From assembly GCF_038632915.1 (NCBI RefSeq), contig NZ_CP152050.1:2697001-2761000 (forward strand): a DNA stretch of 64,000 bases. The letters run 5' to 3'. Positions within the stretch are counted from its first letter, which is position 1. Each line of letters starts with the position of its first letter. Below the pieces are notes generated by a model. The model was not told the origin of the DNA, ran no database searches, and worked only from the letters and a program-made list of their open reading frames with translations. Both the position numbers and the translations under genes were made by a program. This document shows positions 15,249-43,810 of this stretch, piece by piece. Origin of the DNA: Paenisporosarcina sp. FSL H8-0542 (GTDB lineage: Bacteria; Bacillota; Bacilli; Bacillales_A; Planococcaceae).

Positions 15249-17423
15249 TTAGTTAGCAGCAGGAGTAGCAACGTCAACGATGCGACCTTCTACTTTTGGA
15301 TCAACTTTATCCAATGTCTTGATGTAATCGATGAAGCTTGTGTAATCAACGATACCTGGTTCAGACACACGGCCTTCATTGTAAGCCGTTTTGAACATTT
15401 CGTAACCGTCCCCACCTTTAGCAGTGAATGTGTTAGTTGCTACGAAGTAGTTTTTCGCATCTTCAAGAGCCACATATTCAGGTCCAACTTTTACTTGAAC
15501 TTTTGTTACACGTTTGCCCGCTTCTTTTGAACTATCATACTCAAATTTCATGCCAGCTACGTGTAAGAATGCACCGTTTTCTTTTGGTGCTTGAGACACT
15601 GAATGTTCCAAAGCAGCTTTGATTTCAGAGCCTTTAAGGTCTATGATTGCCAATGCATTACCAAAAGGCATAACTTTCAATACTTCACCAACTGTAATGT
15701 CACCCGCATCGATTGAACTACGGATACCCCCTCCGTTTTGAAGAGCGATTACCGTATCTTTATTGATAACTTTTGCTTTTGCAAGCATACCGTCAGTCAT
15801 CAAGTTTCCAAGGTTTGTTTCATTGAAGCGGACACTTGACTTGCCTTCTGTATCACCAGCACGTTGTCCATCTAACATCGCTACTGCTGTTGTACCTGTA
15901 GATTGAGTTTTAATAGCTTCAACTTCTGCTTTATACGGAGCTAATAATTTCACAGCGCCTTCATCAGCAGCAAAGTTTTCAGCCTTCATTTCTAAATATT
16001 CTCCAGCAAAGACTGAAACTTCGCCTTTTTTATTGAAAGTAACATCAAGAGTTCCTAATAATTTACCATATTCATTTGCCGTTACGATAACTGTTGGAGC
16101 GTCGAACGCTTTAGATACTACCGGAGCAGAAATTTTCGAATGTGTATGGCCACCAACAATAACATCGATACCTTCAACTTGTTTCGCTAATTCCAAGTCA
16201 TTATCAAATTTCAAGGAATCATCTAAACCAAGATGAGTAAGTGCGACAATTTTATCTACGCCTTGTTCTTGAAGTGCTTTTACAGACGCTTTTGCTGATT
16301 CAATGTAGTTTTTGAATTCAACTTTCCCTGTTGAAGAAATTGTTGGTGTTTCTTCAGTTGTTAAGCCAAACACACCTACTTTTTCACCATTAACATCTAA
16401 AACCACACCATTATAGATTTGTCCATCTTTGTATGATGAAGCGTAAGTTTTTGATTGAAGTCCGTCAAACAATGGGTCTTTCGAGAAATCCACGTTAGCA
16501 GATACCAATGGGAATTTTGCATTTTTGATGAATTCCGTTAAAGACTTGTGGCCATCTTTTGAAGATCCCAAATCGAATTCATGATTACCAAAAGTCATGG
16601 CATCATAACCAAGGTAGTTCATCATCTCAACGTCTGCAGCGCCTTCAAATGCGTTGAAGTAAAGATCTCCAGAGAATACGTCACCAGCATCTAGTAAAAT
16701 ATTGTTTTCATTTTCTGCACGTACTTCTTTAATTGCAGTAGCACGGAATGGAGCTGTTTCCAGGTATGCATGTGTATCATTTGTATGCATGACAGTTAAA
16801 TCATAGAAACCAAAATGTTCTTTTGCACGATCAAGGAACAACGCAAGTTCACCACGTCTCACTGCGTACCATGAACCATACTTTGTTTCTGTTTGTCCAT
16901 TTGTGATTCCAGCTTTAACAAGTGCATCAACATATTTTGCAAATCTAGGATTTACATCTGTAAATTTAGTCTTTGTAACGCTCTCATCGATTGGTAGCTT
17001 AGCAGCATTTGCTAATATCTTAGAAGTTTCATCACGAGTCAAATCGTCATAAGAGCCAAACGATTTATTCGTCTTACCGTTTACAATCTTCGCTTCTACC
17101 AATGCATCAACTGCCCATTTTGCACGAGCTGGTACATCAGTGAATCCAGAGCTCTTATACTTTCCATCTTCAGAAAAACCTAATGCACGTGCAACTTGAA
17201 CCGCTGCATCTACTCGGTCAATGTTTTTGCTAACACCGAATTGTGTATCAGTTAGCCCTTTAGATATACCGCTTCCCACCAAAAAGTTAACCGCATCACT
17301 ATATTTCTCACCTACATCAGTGAATTTCACTTCGTCAGCTGATGCAACTGGTGCAAATGCCATGGCTACGGCCGCAGCAGTAACAGTAGTAGCTAAGAAT
17401 TTCTTATTAGACAATTTCGACAT
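15249..17423 (-). CDS. SLH-anchored 5'-nucleotidase / 2',3'-cyclic phosphodiesterase
   Basis: 724 residues. ATG 17423 is 10 bases from AAGGAGG; an in-frame TTG two codons up is too close. A signal peptide (cut near ASA-DEV) is followed by three divergent SLH motifs (about 30-205; IDRVD, LTRDE, VRRGE). Then comes a UshA/YfkN-type two-domain nucleotidase (about 208-715) with metal-site motifs MHTNDTHAYL, LDAGDVFSGD, GNHEFDLG and GGHTHSKI, and the substrate domain motifs QNGGGIRSS and AKGGDGYEMF. It should release phosphate from extracellular nucleotides at the cell surface. It resembles each half of the doubled enzyme at 52504-56820. Confidence 0.93.
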   Translation of the reverse strand: MSKLSNKKFLATTVTAAAVAMAFAPVASADEVKFTDVGEKYSDAVNFLVGSGISKGLTDTQFGVSKNIDRVDAAVQVARALGFSEDGKYKSSGFTDVPARAKWAVDALVEAKIVNGKTNKSFGSYDDLTRDETSKILANAAKLPIDESVTKTKFTDVNPRFAKYVDALVKAGITNGQTETKYGSWYAVRRGELALFLDRAKEHFGFYDLTVMHTNDTHAYLETAPFRATAIKEVRAENENNILLDAGDVFSGDLYFNAFEGAADVEMMNYLGYDAMTFGNHEFDLGSSKDGHKSLTEFIKNAKFPLVSANVDFSKDPLFDGLQSKTYASSYKDGQIYNGVVLDVNGEKVGVFGLTTEETPTISSTGKVEFKNYIESAKASVKALQEQGVDKIVALTHLGLDDSLKFDNDLELAKQVEGIDVIVGGHTHSKISAPVVSKAFDAPTVIVTANEYGKLLGTLDVTFNKKGEVSVFAGEYLEMKAENFAADEGAVKLLAPYKAEVEAIKTQSTGTTAVAMLDGQRAGDTEGKSSVRFNETNLGNLMTDGMLAKAKVINKDTVIALQNGGGIRSSIDAGDITVGEVLKVMPFGNALAIIDLKGSEIKAALEHSVSQAPKENGAFLHVAGMKFEYDSSKEAGKRVTKVQVKVGPEYVALEDAKNYFVATNTFTAKGGDGYEMFKTAYNEGRVSEPGIVDYTSFIDYIKTLDKVDPKVEGRIVDVATPAAN

Positions 17424-17559
17424 GTACAAATTTCCTCCTTCGAATATGTAGGTTATTAGGTAAAAACTCTTACCCTATTAATTTTACCAATATTCCCATT
17501 AATAATATAGTTTATTTACAAAATCTTCATTTTTTTGCAAGCGTTTTCTTATCATGTAA

Positions 17560-17592
17560 AAAAGAAGCCCATTTTAAATGGACTTCTTTTTT
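17560..17592 (-). terminator. Terminator overlapping the vanZ-like gene's stop
   Basis: GAAG(C)CCATTT pairs with AAATGG(A)CTTC, flanked by an A-run and a T-run, so it can work in both directions. The TAA of the minus-strand gene lies in its loop. Confidence 0.75.
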
Positions 17593-18035
17593 TTAGACCT
17601 ATACTTTTCAATGAAATAAATAGAGATTAATGCCAAACCCGCACCAAATGAATCCAACAAAACATCATGTATCGTGGGTGTCCGCCCGCCTGTCAGTGAT
17701 TGATGAAATTCATCAGCAATCGCCAGTACTACTGTAAGGATGAATGCCATCCTTAAGCGACCTACCATGATATACGCGGCAATAGCAAGAGCACCAAACG
17801 TAACAACATGTGCTCCTTTTCTGATTATAAATTCAATAAATGCATGGTACCCACGTTCTTCCACAGAAACGATTGTCCCCCAATAAGGAATTTGCAAAAG
17901 AGATAAACCACCTTTAAAAGGTTCGTTCGGGAGCCATCTAATGAGGTCAGGAATCAACGACTGTTCTTCATACGTTTGAGCAGAAGAATAAAATAGTGTT
18001 GCTAGGATGAAGATAAATAGAATGTACTTTTTCAT
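17574..18035 (-). CDS. VanZ-like family membrane protein
   Basis: 153 residues with about four membrane helices. The conserved VanZ pattern is present: RKGAHVVTFGALA in the middle and AIADEFHQSLTGGRTPTIHD before the last helix. The family is named after VanZ, linked to low-level teicoplanin resistance; most chromosomal members have no known role, and wall-related function here is inference from context. The RBS is weak. A 113-bp repeat array lies directly upstream of its start, so any promoter is close to or inside that array. Confidence 0.85.
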   Translation of the reverse strand: MKKYILFIFILATLFYSSAQTYEEQSLIPDLIRWLPNEPFKGGLSLLQIPYWGTIVSVEERGYHAFIEFIIRKGAHVVTFGALAIAAYIMVGRLRMAFILTVVLAIADEFHQSLTGGRTPTIHDVLLDSFGAGLALISIYFIEKYRSKKKKSI

Positions 18036-18102
18036 ATTTTCAAGTTTAGCACACTTCCTAGATTTATTCGTGCTGAAGGGTGATTGTGGATCAGGAGTTG
18101 GA

Positions 18103-18590
18103 AATCTGCATTTCGTGCATGGTTATCTAGATTTCGATTAGCGTTATCTTGAATTCGTGGTGTGTTTTCAGGAATTGGTATCAAAGTAAATTGGTATCTA
18201 CATTTGGTGCGCAGATATCTGTATTTCGTGATGACTTATCTAGATTTCGATTAGCGTTATCTAGAATTCGTGATGTGTATTCTGGAATTGGTGTCAAAGT
18301 AAATTGTTATCTACATTTGGGGCGCAGATATCTGTATTTCGTGATGACTTATCTAGATTTCGATTAGCGTTATCTAGAACTCGTGGTGTGTTTTCTGGAA
18401 TTGGTATCGAAGTAAATTGTTATCTACATTTCGTCCGACGTTATCTGTATTTCGTGCTGACTTATCTAGATTTCGATAAGCGTTATCTTGAATTCGTGGT
18501 GTGTTATCTGGAATTGATGTCAAAGTAACTTGTTATCTACATTTGGTGCGTAGATATCTGTATTTCGTGCTGACTTATCTGGAATTGGTT
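18103..18590. repeat. Intergenic array of 21-bp monomers in 113-bp higher-order units
   Basis: The 113-bp unit recurs exactly: TAGATTTCGAT begins at 18128, 18241, 18354 and 18467. Each unit is itself four 21-bp monomers plus one of 29 bp, each starting with a form of TATCT. Monomer starts are 18103, 18124, 18145, 18166, then 18195, 18216, 18237, 18258, 18279, then 18308 and so on to 18576, about 22 monomers. 113 is not a multiple of 3 and the frames through the array are not genes. The same monomer, reverse-complemented, builds the array at 21001-22140. Confidence 0.88.
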
Positions 18591-18613
18591 ACACCCTTCA
18601 TAACATTGAAAAA

Positions 18614-18636
18614 TGGCAGTCTAAGTTAGACTGCCA
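18614..18636 (-). terminator. Terminator of the SLH CAP-protein gene
   Basis: A 10-bp perfect stem TGGCAGTCTA/TAGACTGCCA, loop AGT, followed on the minus strand by TTTTTC. Confidence 0.85.
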
Positions 18637-18651
18637 CATAATTTCTCATAT

Positions 18652-19701
18652 CTATTTACTTGAAAACATATGAACCCAATAGATTCGGCCATTTGAATCT
18701 TTCTTTATTCCAGCACCGATATTGGTATAGTCTTTGTTTAAAATATTGGCTTTATGACCTGGTGAATTCATCCACGCAGTTACAACTTCCTGCGGTGTTC
18801 GTTGACCATATGCAATGTTTTCTCCGAAGCTGCTATAACTATAGCCGAACTTCTCAGCCATATCCCAAGGCTTCCCATACGTTGGAGAGGTATGATCGAA
18901 ATAATTGTTTTTTACCATGTCTTCCGCTTTTACTGTAGCTATTTTAGATAATGGTGCATCTGCCACTAATGCAGGAAGACCCGCTTTCGCGCGTTCAAGA
19001 TTCACCAAGTGAATGGTTTGTTTTGCGGTATCATCAATTGCAAGCGTGGAATCGACATAGACTTTATTTGTGCTGTCATACTTAATCACACCTGAATCTC
19101 GTTTTTGATCCCAAGTCATCGCACGATCGATGAAGACCGACAATTGCGCACGTGTGACTTTGGCGTACGGACTGAAATAGTTCCATGAAACTCCTTCAGA
19201 AATTTTCACTTCTGCCAAAGTAGTAATGAATGGTTTCCAGTTGTCTTGTGGCACGTCTTTGAAAGTAACTTGGTGATTATCGTCAATTTTAATTTGGTAT
19301 GCCACTACCAGAACTTTAGCCATTTGCGCACGACTCAATGGTGCATCAGGGTTAAATGTTGTCGCATTTGAAAAGATTCCTTTTTCAGTTAAAGCGCGTA
19401 TTTCTTTAAATGCCCAGTGCGTTGAAGGTACATCTTGATAACTCGTTTTGAAAGTTGAATCAAGCGGTAGCTTTAACGCACTCGCCAATATTTTTGCGGC
19501 TTGTGCACGGGTAACTTGATTGTTCGGACCAAACGTCCCATTACTATATCCATTAATTATTTTTGCATTTGAAAGCGTTATAATTGAGCTATATGCCCAA
19601 TGTTCCGTTGAAACATCCGGAAAACCAGCAGCTTGACTACTTGTCGGAACGAACAAAGTAATAGCGAGTAATGCCGCAACAATAAACTTTACGGGTTTCA
19701 T
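18652..19701 (-). CDS. SLH-anchored CAP-domain (SCP/YkwD-like) protein
   Basis: 349 residues from ATG 19701. A signal peptide (1-24, SQA-AGF) is followed by three SLH motifs (VTRAQ, LSRAQ, VTRAQ; about 25-205) and a CAP domain (about 230-349) with LVNLERAKAGLPAL, FDHTSPTYG, FGENIAYGQ, WMNSPGHKANILN and GAGIKKDSNGRIYWVHMF. The His and Glu of the CAP cavity (FDH, GEN, GHK) are present. YkwD-type CAP proteins are secreted and of uncertain activity, with lipid or peptide binding and protease action proposed. It is flanked upstream and downstream by intergenic regions, one of them the 113-bp array. Confidence 0.92.
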   Translation of the reverse strand: MKPVKFIVAALLAITLFVPTSSQAAGFPDVSTEHWAYSSIITLSNAKIINGYSNGTFGPNNQVTRAQAAKILASALKLPLDSTFKTSYQDVPSTHWAFKEIRALTEKGIFSNATTFNPDAPLSRAQMAKVLVVAYQIKIDDNHQVTFKDVPQDNWKPFITTLAEVKISEGVSWNYFSPYAKVTRAQLSVFIDRAMTWDQKRDSGVIKYDSTNKVYVDSTLAIDDTAKQTIHLVNLERAKAGLPALVADAPLSKIATVKAEDMVKNNYFDHTSPTYGKPWDMAEKFGYSYSSFGENIAYGQRTPQEVVTAWMNSPGHKANILNKDYTNIGAGIKKDSNGRIYWVHMFSSK

Positions 19702-19890
19702 TCTCCCACATCCTCTCCATATTACTCTACCAAAAAATAGAATAATTTTAATGAGGATAAGGAGGCACGAAAATAAATCTATGATATTGGAAGATTGTTG
19801 AAATTTGAAGGGATTTATGTTGGTGTAGGGTGATAAGTTTTAATAAATCTTGTGAGATATCATAATATTTGATAAATTCATAAAAAGGAG

Positions 19891-20892
19891 ATGATTTTTA
19901 TTCAACTAAATCGAGATATTCCTGCAGGATTATTTTCTCTTCGGCGATTGCATCGTCGATTATCGGTAAATCACCCCCAATTTACCGACATTAATCAAGA
20001 TTTGTATAATTCCAACGCAGGTCATGCTGGAGAAGCATATATTGATTCTGTCTTATCGACCATTCACTTCCCTATCCCCCATATATTACTTCCCAATATT
20101 CGAATCCATGAAAAAGACATTCCTTCCACCCAAATTGATATTTTAATATTCACAACCGCTTATGCATTAATAATAGAAGTAAAGAATTGGAGTGGAACAA
20201 TATCCTTCCAACAAGTCGGACAAGTATTACAAACAAAAGATGGCATCGTAAGATCAATGGATTGTCCTACCGTTCAAGCAGATTACTATGTCGGGAATTT
20301 GCTAGATTGGTTTGTAAAGCATGATACACAATTACCTGTACATCGAATTGTCAGTTTCCCCTTTGCTTCCACCTTACTAATTGGAGCTGAGAATCGGGGT
20401 ATTCATTCTGCAAAAGAGTTACCTATAATTCTTCGGAAATTAAATAAGCTCCCGCAGCAACTTACTCATTATCAATTTCAAACACTTTCTAGGAAATTAC
20501 AAGAAGCAAATCTACCTTTCGAACACGCAACTGCATGCCAAAAATATGGAATACATCCCTCTGATCTTCTGAAAGGAATTTTCTGCCCGAAGTGTGAGAG
20601 CCGCTTATTGAAAAAAAGTAATCGAGTATATGTATGCTCCTCATGTCTTCATATTCCTGACAACCCTTTTTACGATACGATGATAGATTGGTTTACATTG
20701 GTCGGTAATCAGATTACAAATAGACAATTACGTTTATTCGCAGGTGTAGACAAATCCTATACGGTCGGTTATTTTATGAAAAAATCAAACTTCCCTTACT
20801 CAGGTCAAAATAAGGGAACAATCTATCATGTAAATGCTGAAGAAATGCATCGCTTTCTATCCAAAAAGGAAAAAGCTTGCTTCCGGAAATGA
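19891..20892 (+). CDS. NERD-domain protein with C-terminal zinc ribbon
   Basis: 333 residues at most. The NERD (nuclease-related) domain covers about 40-150: GHAGEAYIDSVL, then TQIDILIFTTAYALIIEVKNWSG (over two lines of the fold), with the D, E-V-K of a PD-(D/E)XK-like core. A zinc ribbon CPKC-x18-CSSC lies near 230. The ATG at 19891 touches its RBS (AAAAGGAG), so initiation may really be at an ATT nine bases further (19900) or the start may be inefficient. The substrate is unknown. It is bracketed by the two large repeat arrays, and no partner gene is near. Confidence 0.85.
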   Translation: MIFIQLNRDIPAGLFSLRRLHRRLSVNHPQFTDINQDLYNSNAGHAGEAYIDSVLSTIHFPIPHILLPNIRIHEKDIPSTQIDILIFTTAYALIIEVKNWSGTISFQQVGQVLQTKDGIVRSMDCPTVQADYYVGNLLDWFVKHDTQLPVHRIVSFPFASTLLIGAENRGIHSAKELPIILRKLNKLPQQLTHYQFQTLSRKLQEANLPFEHATACQKYGIHPSDLLKGIFCPKCESRLLKKSNRVYVCSSCLHIPDNPFYDTMIDWFTLVGNQITNRQLRLFAGVDKSYTVGYFMKKSNFPYSGQNKGTIYHVNAEEMHRFLSKKEKACFRK

Positions 20893-20905
20893 CCGGAAGC
20901 TTTTC
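20879..20905 (+). terminator. Terminator of the NERD gene
   Basis: GCTTCCGG/CCGGAAGC stem followed by TTTTC; the stop codon lies in its loop. Confidence 0.85.
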
Positions 20906-21000
20906 TATTGTAAGTAAGAATTATTGATTGATAAACTTCATGCAATTTGCTGCCAAATGCATATTTTTTGCCGTAAGAAATTTTCGGTTTTCATGAATTT

Positions 21001-22140
21001 TAGATATGAGTACTCGATTTCTAGATAAACACTGTCCAATGCGAGATATCACCTATTGAAATGTAGATATCACACGTCGAATCCTCGATATCCACCCGCG
21101 AATCCATGATTCCAGCGATAAACCCACAGCAACGTGCCATTTGCGGTGCAAATGGCACCATTTCAGCGCGTTTGAATTGTACGGTTTTCGTGAATTTTAG
21201 ATATGAGACCTTGATTTCTAGATAAACACTGGCCATTTCAAGATATCCCTTTCTGAAATGTAGATATTACACGACGAATACTCGATATCCACCCGCGAAT
21301 CCTTGATTCCAGCGATTAACCCACAGCAACGTGCCATTTGCGGTGCAAATGGCACCATTTCAGCGCGTTTGAATTGTGTGGATTTAGTGAATTTTAGATA
21401 TGAGTACTCGATTTCTAGATAAACACTGGCCAATTTGAGATATCACCTATTGAAATGTAGATTTCACACGATGAATCCTCGATATCCACCCGCGAATCCT
21501 TGATTCCAGCGATTAACCCACAGCAACGTGCCATTTGCGGTGCAAATGGCACCATTTCAGCGCGTTTGAATTGTGTGGATTTAGTGAATTTTAGATATGA
21601 GTACTCGATTTCTAGATAAACACTGGCCAATTTGAGATATCACCTATTGAAATGTAGATATCACACAACGAATCCTCGATAGCCACCCGCGAATCCTTGA
21701 TTCCAGCGATACACCCACAGCAACGTGCCATTTGCGACGCAAATGGCACCATTTCAGCGCGTTTGAATTGTGCGGATTTCGTGAATTTTAGATATCTGTA
21801 TTCGATTCCTAGATAACCCAGGCACATTTCAAGATATCCCTTTCTGAAATGTAGATATCACACGACGAATCCTCGATATCCACCCGCGAATCCTTGATTC
21901 CAGTGAAAAACCCTCAGCAACGTGCCATTTGCGATTCAAATGGCACCAATTCAGCGCGTTTAAATTGTGCGGATTTCGTGAATTTTAGATATCTGTATTC
22001 GATTCCTAGATAACCCAGGCACATTTCAAGATATCCCTTTCTGAAATGTAGATATCACAAGGTGAATCCTCGATATCCACCCGCGAATCCTTGATATCCC
22101 CAGCCTGATATCCCCACTCGATATCCCCAGCTGATATCCT
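21001..22140. repeat. Tandem array of 197-bp units made of 21-bp monomers and a hairpin spacer
   Basis: TAGATAT begins each unit at 21001, 21198, 21395, 21592, 21789 and 21986, a constant 197 bp. In every unit six monomers stand exactly 21 bp apart (for example 21002, 21023, 21044, 21065, 21086, 21107), followed by a 71-bp spacer. The spacer has an 11-bp perfect inverted repeat (GTGCCATTTGC/GCAAATGGCAC, 21134-21158 in unit 1) whose arms are kept while the loop changes (GGT, GAC, GATT). The sixth unit breaks into GATATCCCCA words 13-14 bp apart ending near 22140. Repeated 71-codon minus-strand frames here are a by-product. Confidence 0.9.
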
Positions 22141-22156
22141 GAAAAGTATTACAAAA

Positions 22157-22186
22157 ATCCCCCACTCTTTCAGAGAGTGAGGGATT
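22157..22186 (-). terminator. Terminator of the M20 peptidase gene
   Basis: CACTCT/AGAGTG plus CCC/GGG around one mismatch; the minus-strand side runs into TTTTTG. Confidence 0.8.
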
Positions 22187-22189
22187 GGG

Positions 22190-23809
22190 TCAGGCTTCTA
22201 TTTTTTCCAAAAGGACTTTTTTCACTAAATTCTCGAGTAACTGTGGCAATTCAACGAATGCACTTTGGATGTGAAGCCGTTCCGTACGTTTGTGTGCGTC
22301 TTTTCCGAAGGGTCCCACGTTGAGAACTGGAGCTTTTAGATTTCGCATTTCATTAAAGGGAATGGAGTACGTATCGCCCCATACAGGTGTGTTGGCTTCA
22401 AACACCTGCCATCCCCCATTTGTATCTTCGTAGTTCACGTAACTCAAATCAGAGATTCCATTAAAATAATGAATCTGTTCAATCGCTAGATTAAATTCCG
22501 ATTTACCCAGCTCTTTTATAAATTCCATACACTCTTCCACTAACGGATCGTCACTCGTATTGACTGCAGGATAATATGGTGGGGCAAAAAGGAGTACGAT
22601 TGCAGGTGCCAACTCCTGACATTGAATCATCAGTGTATCAACGATTCGGAATGATTTTTCACGATCATCCAATTCCTGTTGATCCCGAACGGTCGTTTTG
22701 ACTAATTCTACATAATCGTAGCCAAATTTCGAAACTGCGTGATTCATCAATTCCTCGTACTTCAATACCCGTATCTCACCAACTGGTGCTACATCCTCAC
22801 GAGTACAAATCGCTTGATAGCTTGAGTTGCAATCATCCGCAGCTTCATTCGCTACACCTTCAAAAATCGACATGATTTCAGCAGCATTGCGTTTCATCAG
22901 AAACACATTATATAATGCTTTCGCACGATACGGTGTCTGCGCTGAATACTCCATTTTCAAATCTTTTTGCTGAATGGTTACGGGTAATGGAGTCTTCTCA
23001 CCTAGAACAGTTTCCTGAAATAATGGATTATATTCCATACGCTGCGTTAAAAATGAAGCAATATAATTGGCCGTAATTCCACTAAGCGGTTCTCCCACAT
23101 GTGTCTCCATGCCGTAAAAAAGGGCTGACGGCATAATTTTTCCGATGGATCCCGAATACAAATAATATTTATCGTCACCCGGTTGTTGTGCGAAAACGGG
23201 CTCGCTGTTTAAAAATAGCTTGTATGTGAGATCATGTTGCTCACGATATTCATTCAATTTAGATACTGCCGCTCTCATGCCAGAGCTGTTTACTTCTTCG
23301 TCTGGAACCGTCAATAACAGGATATTGACCGGCCATTGTTCATGACATGCTTTTTCGATAAGGCTCATGTGCAATACTAGACCCATCTTCATATCCATCG
23401 TGCCACGACCAAATAAATAATTACCTGATTCCAAATCAAGTCGGGCGTCTTCAGGCAATTCTTCTTTTACATCATGCAAGGCTTTCGTCAACATTTCCGG
23501 TTCAAAAGCCAATGCTTCGAGGTCACCGTATTCTTCGGTATTAACCGTATCGAAATGACTAATTAGCACAATCGTTTCTTTCGCTTCTGGATGTTTATAT
23601 AAAGCAGTGAGAAACTTCCGACCAAGATCTGCCTCGCTTAATTCAATGTTTTTATAATGATCTTGGAAGTATGGAATATCCTGCAGTTTCGCTTGAACCT
23701 TAAACGGAAATTCTCGTTCTCCATCTGATAGCGTCATACTTTTCCAACTGACTACTTCACATAACAAGGTACGGAGTGCTTCTGGTGTTGACCACATAAG
23801 TTCTGTCAT
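22190..23809 (-). CDS. RocB-like M20 family metallopeptidase
   Basis: 539 residues. The M20 metal-site motifs are present: SHFDTVN, FGRGTMDMKMG (bridging Asp) and PDEEVNSSGMR with the catalytic Glu pair, plus a C-terminal GPFGKDAHKRTER with the last metal-ligand His. Length and layout match RocB, the arginine-catabolism protein of B. subtilis, rather than short acylases. No signal peptide, so cytoplasmic. It lies 50 bp behind an aminotransferase gene, and the two with gntR form one likely operon for amino-acid or peptide degradation. The exact substrate is unknown. Confidence 0.85.
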   Translation of the reverse strand: MTELMWSTPEALRTLLCEVVSWKSMTLSDGEREFPFKVQAKLQDIPYFQDHYKNIELSEADLGRKFLTALYKHPEAKETIVLISHFDTVNTEEYGDLEALAFEPEMLTKALHDVKEELPEDARLDLESGNYLFGRGTMDMKMGLVLHMSLIEKACHEQWPVNILLLTVPDEEVNSSGMRAAVSKLNEYREQHDLTYKLFLNSEPVFAQQPGDDKYYLYSGSIGKIMPSALFYGMETHVGEPLSGITANYIASFLTQRMEYNPLFQETVLGEKTPLPVTIQQKDLKMEYSAQTPYRAKALYNVFLMKRNAAEIMSIFEGVANEAADDCNSSYQAICTREDVAPVGEIRVLKYEELMNHAVSKFGYDYVELVKTTVRDQQELDDREKSFRIVDTLMIQCQELAPAIVLLFAPPYYPAVNTSDDPLVEECMEFIKELGKSEFNLAIEQIHYFNGISDLSYVNYEDTNGGWQVFEANTPVWGDTYSIPFNEMRNLKAPVLNVGPFGKDAHKRTERLHIQSAFVELPQLLENLVKKVLLEKIEA

Positions 23810-26833: not shown

Positions 26834-26860
26834 CCACTTCCAATTGGGAGTGGTTTTTTT
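26834..26860 (+). terminator. Terminator of the TM2 gene
   Basis: CCACTTCC/GGGAGTGG stem with one U-G pair, loop AATT, then seven T. Confidence 0.88.
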
Positions 26861-26943
26861 ATTCGCGGTTTTGAGTGATCTATTCGCGTTATTGTTCTTT
26901 CAATTCGCGGTGTCGACTCTTCTATTCTTCTTGTCCCATCAAA
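26860..26943. repeat. Short array of 21-bp monomers
   Basis: TATTCGCG-type words start at 26860, 26881, 26902 (AATTCGCGG) and 26923 (TATTCTTC), exactly 21 bp apart. Directly after the TM2 terminator and before the terminator of the convergent EamA gene. Confidence 0.7.
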
Positions 26944-27952: not shown

Positions 27953-28125
27953 AAGCGCTACTTTAGCCCGACGCCGGCGCTGGAAAGGTTCCCTTTGCGA
28001 CGAGTAACCGCAGGAGCAAGATTCCCTTTGCGACGAGTAACCGCAGGAGCAAGAACCGATGCGATAGCCTACTTTCGCCTGAAGGTCTGAAGCTAAGGTG
28101 TGAGCTAGCGCTTGGGGCTAGACAT
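27953..28125 (-). repeat. Dispersed intergenic repeat element, copy 2 (reversed)
   Basis: Read on the minus strand it begins ATGTCTAGCCCCAAGCGCTA and ends AAGTAGCGCTTTAGG, matching copy 1 at 767-990. Its 8-bp terminal inverted repeat (27953-27960 with 28106-28113) is AAGCGCTA/TAGCGCTT, so both arms changed together relative to copy 1. It contains a 32-bp sequence repeated in tandem with a 33-bp period (27989-28020 and 28022-28053). The rest of the gap, 28126-28354, shows nothing I can name. Confidence 0.7.
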
Positions 28126-43501: not shown

Positions 43502-43703
43502 TCAAACACGTCCTTCGATTAATAAAGTTTACGCCCTAGTGTAACATGCAATCCAGCATGAATACAGGGTACGAAGGATGTGGGACTTACGGAATAGCGC
43601 GGATATGGATAAATTCATTATTAAGATATGCACGCTGACAGGGATTAGCTGTAAACAAAATTGTCATACAACAAGAGTTGGATACTTTTTGATGATTTTT
43701 CTG

Positions 43704-43810
43704 TCTATTCGTGGTTTCCTCAGATCTATTCGCGAATCCAGGTTCTCTATTCGCGGTTTCCTGTCGACTATTCTCGCTCAGGTACATTCTATTCTCGTTT
43801 CAATAAATTT
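43704..43810. repeat. Array of five 21-bp monomers
   Basis: TCTATTCG-type words start at 43704, 43725, 43746, 43767 (ACTATTCTCG) and 43788, exactly 21 bp apart; it fills the gap between the SEC-C gene and the YcgG-like gene. The rest of the gap (43502-43703) shows nothing else. Confidence 0.75.

Follow-up and report, generated by a model that had tools for sequence, protein, structure and literature searches.

The window analysed here, 64,000 nucleotides from the chromosome of Paenisporosarcina sp. FSL H8-0542 (contig NZ_CP152050.1, positions 2,697,001 to 2,761,000), carries two intergenic arrays, termed A and B, whose short monomers follow each other at a step of 21 bp. They belong to a set of polar repeats that are dispersed between genes, keep a conserved core within an otherwise near-random monomer, can hold different cores at the same sites in different species and, in two of their classes, point towards the replication origin (oriC) at every site counted. 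These two strictly oriented classes suggest previously undescribed direction signs that are read by DNA-binding proteins. Our preferred reading, to which we assign a probability of roughly 0.45, is that the arrays are polar, helically phased binding arrays for sequence-specific DNA-binding proteins that co-evolve with them, probably serving as landmarks or roadblocks for the machines that travel from origin to terminus. With two helical turns from one monomer to the next, all cores would be presented on a single side of the DNA, a cooperative row of protein could form along the array, and the bound row would act as a polar landmark or roadblock for the replisome, the SMC condensin or a translocase of the SpoIIIE/FtsK type.

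Anatomy and dispersal of the element

A preliminary description of the window had proposed two arrays on a 21-bp step with units of 113 and 197 bp, and Tandem Repeats Finder (TRF) recovered both with 0 indels: array A at 18104-18580 (period 113, 4.2 copies, 90% matches) and array B at 20985-22095 (period 197, 5.6 copies, 92% matches). Autocorrelation, suggested there as a check at 21, 113 and 197 bp, peaks in A at lags 113 (0.815) and 21 (0.503) over a mean of 0.286 and a standard deviation of 0.071 (lags 5-259), and in B at lags 197 (0.876) and 21 (0.411) over a mean of 0.258 and a standard deviation of 0.051; lag 21 thus stands about three standard deviations above the mean in each array. 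Pairs of GATATC spaced 19-22 bp apart occur 8 times in the window against 0.03 expected from shuffles. The organisation at two levels, with the 21-bp step inside the 113- and 197-bp units, is therefore sound, and the units, which had been called exact, are so in period; in sequence they share 84-95% identity with a single reference unit. What had been described as a 29-bp monomer in A and the start of what had been described as a 71-bp spacer in B both correspond to the end module of one element, diverged in A.

This element, hereafter the TATCT class, is polar and non-coding and consists of five to six 21-bp monomers of the form TATC-N3-ATTTC plus variable bases, followed by an end module near TATCTAAAATTCAYNTTTTNNNNACAATT; in B the spacer beyond the end module contains a palindrome. 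Arrays A and B are members of this one class, enlarged via tandem duplication of the whole element, which has occurred at three sites of the chromosome (A, B and 2894-2896 kb). The comparison with higher-order satellites made earlier is apt for this tandem amplification at a few sites, but not for the base form, in which single elements lie dispersed, each with its monomers in order and closed by an end module. An assembly artefact, one of two conditions under which the preliminary description would have been withdrawn, is unlikely, because the genome was assembled into a single contig and other species, assembled separately, carry arrays at corresponding sites. A conserved run of G at the 5′ boundary of the element was also considered and rejected, GGGG being present in just 4/10 and 4/10 elements.

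The present chromosome, a single contig, is referred to below as G000, two congeners as G002 and G004, a relative as G005 and a genome of another genus as G024. A sequence-only model of the TATCT class (E<=0.01, tandem copies counted once) matches G000 at 16 places, some of which were in the model; 14 of them lie at 2.71-3.21 Mb, and of the remaining two the one at 294 kb is a partial copy of B and the one at 1351 kb a short hit. With dnaA starting at base 1 and the sign of the GC skew changing between 1.72 and 1.90 Mb, the class is almost wholly confined to one stretch of the left arm; in G004 all nine hits of the model (2.37-3.20 Mb) are likewise in the negative-skew arm. The partial copy of B (G000:C1:294121-294342, L012), up to 92% identical and located on the other chromosome arm, indicates that B sequence can be copied elsewhere. 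At the same threshold 14/60 relatives match (15/61 including the own genome), several by one weak match each. Over 8 kb the sequence shares 99.975% identity with a record of Paenisporosarcina sp. HGH0030, in keeping with the placement in Planococcaceae implied by the preliminary description. At tandemly amplified sites a palindrome of the GTGCCA...TGGCAC type was observed between elements, namely at B, at its G005 counterpart (L171:2443-3257), at a G002 site (L154) and at 2894-2896 kb (L043), and array A is without one. At the B-orthologous site of G005 the palindrome reads GTGACATTTGG..CCAAATGTCAC, both arms being altered relative to the window.

Core turnover and the helical step

Ten elements of G000 and ten of G002, selected via the end module, were compared monomer by monomer (each set of 60 monomers thus includes 10 end modules, and two G002 elements share one tandem locus). 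TATC stands in 50/60 monomers of G000 and ATTC in 0/60, and in G002 ATTC stands in 50/60 and TATC in 1/60. Within a genome the core is identical at 0.80-0.85, as against 0.25-0.37 for the variable part, where 0.26 is expected at random; the variable bases agree at 0.25-0.28 when monomers from different positions are compared and at 0.31-0.37 when the position is shared. Because the same-position values exceed random, the copies have a common origin in one ordered element, which accounts for part of their likeness.

Turnover of the core is also seen site by site, in orthologous gaps identified by their flanking proteins. At site S1, between the gene of an ABC-type ATPase (which we take to be ABC-F) and its convergent neighbour, the cores are TATC in G000 and G005 and ATTC in G002. 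The gap next to it (S2) holds TTTATCGCTCAAAC in G000, AATTCTAACTGAG in G002 and TTTTTACAACGTGA in G004, the cores at S5 and S7 differ between G000 and G005, and in G005 the gap orthologous to that of B is occupied by an array, also in a higher-order unit. From these sequence comparisons we infer an old, ordered element with selection on its core, and the simplest cause of the turnover would be a trans factor that changed between species.

The step is kept while the cores differ. Among adjacent spacings of up to 30 bp, all are 21 bp in the TATCT class (32/32) and in a second class with the core TATTCGCG (18/18); for TTTATC 12 are 21 bp and 5 are 20 bp (n=17), and for TTATCTGCG, a class of G024, 57 are 21 bp and 9 are 20 bp (n=66). 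Wider intervals, of 40-62 bp and in three cases of at least 100 bp, were taken as missing or degenerate monomers. As spacings of 20/21 bp recur across classes, a helical constraint rather than pure copying is indicated. The helical phasing put forward in the preliminary description is borne out, with 20/21-bp steps accompanying unrelated cores, also in another genus, and with cores conserved where the rest of the monomer is not.

The non-coding part of 556 kb sampled from G000 was scanned de novo for direct repeats of four copies. Among lags 16-40, lag 21 came first at threshold 12 (10 regions, the other lags averaging 3.58), and at threshold 13 it gave 3 versus a mean of 0.46, lag 34 also reaching 3. 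In a scan over lags 12-60, which counts slightly differently, lag 21 is outranked at threshold 12 by lag 42, its double (11), and by lag 12 (15), lag 21 is top at threshold 13 (5; next 3), and at threshold 14 lag 34 (3) lies above lag 21 (2). By eye, 7/10 of the lag-21 regions are arrays, five with cores other than TATCT. The same lag gave 4 regions versus a mean of 0.96 in G024; in G004 the result was not significant (2 versus a mean of 1.96), one of the two being a clear GGGAATAAA array. In control genomes from four further families of the class, of which 400 kb with about 39 kb of non-coding DNA were sampled, lag 21 gave 0, 1, 1 and 0 regions and no clear array by eye, a sample too small to exclude arrays. 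The scan, together with arrays beside other matches, gives G000 the cores TATTCGCG, TTTATCNNTCAAA, GCCGATTAAAT, AGTTGCCCC, CTGTCTACC, TTTAGTTGGAAAA and a weak GGGAATAAA; those of the relatives are TTTTTACAACGTGA (G004), TTTTTCCTACGT and TTTTTCAGACGT (G005), AATTCTAACTGAG (G002), and TTATCTGCG and GGTTGAGCGAATTT (G024). In the last genome (L182-L185, L394-L405) monomers often alternate between a TATCTGCGAAT type and a TATCTGCG(C/T)TT type, forming a 42-bp dimer over the 21-bp step.

The main rival to protein-binding rows is an old selfish repeat: dispersed elements, perhaps resembling miniature inverted-repeat transposable elements (MITEs), with inner 21-bp units, which insert harmlessly behind terminators, have no function and owe their species cores to separate bursts from different masters. 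Such a repeat explains the dispersal and the ordered monomers, given that the order is kept between loci and same-position variable bases exceed random, that the partial copy at 294 kb shows copying to be possible, and that whole elements are duplicated in tandem at three sites. It does not explain core conservation, the species dialects or orientation, and we consider it doubtful: near-random variable parts beside conserved cores within one genome are hard to maintain without selection, the helical step is exact, the same orthologous gaps are occupied in up to three genomes, and two classes are strictly oriented towards oriC.

Gap preference and orientation to oriC

The array lists behind the gap counts and behind the TATCT and TTTATC orientation counts below were compiled by hand from prior matches. 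Out of 52 arrays from five genomes, 7 at edges were excluded, and the 45 with both flanks lie in 18 convergent, 24 codirectional and 3 divergent gaps, compared with 47, 120 and 54 among 221 background gaps of at least 150 bp from the G000 samples and the window. Divergent gaps, where promoters lie, are thus depleted for arrays (3/45 vs 54/221, P 0.0085). The sites are spread over both arms or, for TATCT, over one origin-proximal stretch.

Arrays of the TATTCGCG class run 5′ to 3′ towards oriC at 10/10 sites, a count that omits a 2-mismatch match at 2211 kb which would point away from oriC; the reversed-pattern control gave 2+1 hits. The TTATCTGCG arrays of G024, where dnaA lies at 1.01 Mb, do so at 16/16 sites, with 40 forward and 20 reverse pair hits versus 0 and 0 for the reversed pattern; the skew of this genome was sampled, and near the 498-kb site it is locally about zero, yet the place of the site relative to oriC is clear. 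In convergent gaps, which are neutral with respect to the genes, TATTCGCG points to oriC in 2/2 and TTATCTGCG in 6/6 (8/8 for the two strict classes), TTTATC in 3/3, and all classes together in 13/15 (P 0.007). Because all known sites of the two strict classes point to oriC, machines moving from origin to terminus would always meet a bound row from the same side.

A signal linked to transcription could instead underlie the pattern, the sites being antisense to the gene whose 3′ end precedes them, for example as roadblocks to read-through behind terminators. Cores in codirectional gaps are antisense to the genes in 17/21 cases in G000 and 9/9 in G024, the depletion of divergent gaps fits, and terminator-like hairpins flank the window arrays. 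We nonetheless find it unlikely, since the gene-neutral convergent gaps still show the bias to oriC. Leading-strand open reading frames (ORFs) amount to 326/413 and 116/163, and gene-strand bias alone yields 26/26 with a probability of 0.0004 when sites are treated as independent, so this bias is unlikely as the sole cause of polarity for the TATTCGCG and TTATCTGCG classes; the TATCT class is excepted from that verdict.

Several results weigh against the arrays being rows of bound protein that mark direction. The TATCT class, that of A and B, is less polar, with 9/12 sites towards oriC, or 10/14 with A and B (the list of 12 omits the partial hits L086 and L087, the partial B copy at 294 kb and arrays A and B, and takes the copies at 2894-2896 kb as one site); TTTATC likewise reaches 9/12, and TATCT in convergent gaps 2/4, B counted. 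In codirectional gaps the orientation to genes and that to replication are inseparable. No lag-21 signal was found at S1 in G004, where the model hit has an E of 4e-6, nor at S2 in G005, and the shared site S8 holds no array in G004. The same-position variable bases also lie a little above random.

A broader form of the direction-sign proposal, which we regard as rather speculative, is that Planococcaceae, with hints in other Bacillales, may carry a chromosomal direction code: several classes of phased arrays, each with its own protein, pointing to oriC, with species dialects that change with the protein, would form polar boundaries for condensin or the replisome and be a counterpart of oriented CTCF sites.

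Two further explanations fare worse. That the arrays, which read-through could transcribe, give rise to an RNA that is structured or binds protein is most improbable, and this reading was rejected on ordinary folds (eight folds, both strands, z -1.66 to +1.18) and on an Rfam scan of 17400-22800 that gave two matches near the arrays, both below threshold; direct repeats cannot pair mutually, and the 20/21-bp step has no evident use in RNA. Coding remnants of heptad repeats (21 bp being seven codons) can practically be dismissed, for although 21 is a multiple of three, many matches to TTATCT x4 outside Bacillales are coding or low-complexity repeats (among the matches listed) and ORFs cover 2/3 Indiicoccus loci, the ORFs across array A have just 30-74 amino acids, neither the 113-bp nor the 197-bp unit keeps the reading frame, steps of 20 bp exist, and the arrays sit in gaps between conserved genes.

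Known systems and further arrays

Taken singly, the features have precedents in polar words, in phased direct repeats and in dispersed repeats. The combination of polarity, phasing and dispersal appears to be new, a cautious fallback being that the arrays are a variant of polar chromosome signals, and a literature search, with subscription papers and preprints outside it, found no description of such arrays. Comparable in orientation are the FtsK orienting polar sequences (KOPS), the SpoIIIE recognition sequences (SRS) and Chi, which are likewise non-palindromic words oriented by replichore, as the 10/10 and 16/16 counts are here and the two 9/12 counts only in part. Those are numerous single short words that also occur in genes, whereas here the cores stand in phase, 3-6 or more to a row, in intergenic DNA at tens of sites. 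The fork traps Ter/Tus and RTP share polar sites in fixed orientation relative to forks, bound by protein there and putatively here, but they are single or paired sites around the terminus, and the arrays are spread over both arms or, for TATCT, keep to one origin-proximal stretch. Plasmid iterons repeat in one direction about every 20 bp and are bound along a single face of the helix; they stand at a replication origin by the initiator gene and are not dispersed over a chromosome as in our case.

Repeats of the BOX, REP and bcr type are also dispersed between genes, as the TATCT class is at its 16 places, are sometimes modular with tandem inner units, and are of unclear use. They are typically palindromic or form stem-loops. 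In contrast, the 21-bp arrays do not fold, a palindrome being present only in the B-type spacer, and they keep a two-turn step, species-specific cores and orientation. Set against variable number tandem repeats (VNTRs) or satellites, whose units are alike through recent tandem duplication, the arrays give a mixed picture: the 113- and 197-bp units are alike within an array, and the variable parts of the 21-bp monomers are near random between positions. The identical repeats and spacers beside cas genes that define arrays of clustered regularly interspaced short palindromic repeats (CRISPR) differ from the degenerate cores and 21-bp monomers found here. The targets of RemA are, according to excerpts from one published report, poorly conserved direct repeats, for which a ring-forming protein was proposed to wrap DNA, with footprints of 7-bp regions at 3-bp spacing (about 10 bp) upstream of promoters (PMC8481266). 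The remA gene is present in G000 and the poor conservation of the repeats is shared, but the arrays have a 20/21-bp step and avoid divergent gaps, and judging from these excerpts RemA was rejected as their reader, the step of about 10 bp not fitting 20/21 bp.

If the arrays are indeed protein rows, they would be mapped polar sites on bacterial DNA that come with natural experiments, sister species carrying different cores at one and the same place. Such rows would give access to the marking of chromosome direction beyond KOPS, Chi and Ter, and to a case where the specificity of a protein shifts while many sites follow. In practical terms, contigs of at least one draft genome end in such arrays, which may also resemble heptad-repeat genes. 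The former was observed in G018 (L189, L191), where TTATCTCGGTCTCG arrays extend to contig ends and so probably break the draft assembly.

The features of the window are collected in Table 1. The eight proteins scanned beside its arrays share no common theme, are unrelated to CRISPR and include no initiators; cas genes were not searched genome-wide. A 33-bp tandem repeat at 27985-28054 (2.1 copies, 97% matches) is unrelated to the arrays.

Table 1. Arrays and associated repeats in the window (positions counted from its first nucleotide).
Feature	Position	Strand	Description
Array A	18103..18590	+	TATCT-class monomers, 113-bp higher-order unit (4 x 21 + 29); gap between VanZ-like and SLH/CAP genes; reads towards oriC
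Array B	20985..22095	-	TATCT-class monomers, 197-bp higher-order unit (6 x 21 + 71); convergent gap between NERD-domain and M20-peptidase genes; away from oriC
Palindrome in B spacer	21528..21552	.	GTGCCATTTGC-GGT-GCAAATGGCAC
End module of B, one unit	21569..21597	-	TATCTAAAATTCAC...CACAATT; also in the remaining units
13-bp repeat at edge of B	22092..22139	.	TGATATCCCCAGC, 3.6 copies (TRF)
Second-class TATTCGCG array	26857..26935	+	21-bp step; convergent gap; towards oriC
Second-class TATTCGCG array	43702..43806	+	21-bp step; codirectional gap; towards oriC

A pattern scan of genome contigs for TTATCT x4 gave at least 119 stretches, 80 with titles, and yields examples rather than a distribution, because many matches are 7-bp microsatellites or coding repeats. 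Among the matches listed, non-coding TTATCT arrays with a 21-bp step occur in Bacillus sp. ZZV12-4809, Cytobacillus oceanisediminis, C. firmus, Metasolibacillus and Bacillus mediterraneensis, the core being continued differently in each (TTATCTAACA, TTATCTGCGAATTT, TTATCTACGGTAA); in Bacillus sp. UNC438CL73TsuS30, as at the two Indiicoccus loci, an ORF covers the array. A genome of another family (G038, L329:14800-15700) has intergenic arrays of 11/22-bp step with the cores AAAAACCAACT, TGGAGATGTGG and GACGTAGGGCAGTAATGTATGA, perhaps a one-turn relative of the 21-bp arrays. Records of uncultured Prevotella (L215, L247, L253, L266) contain mostly non-coding TTATCTCTGCATGTTACGAAA arrays, also at a 21-bp step and with mixed companions, which we regard as an unrelated case.

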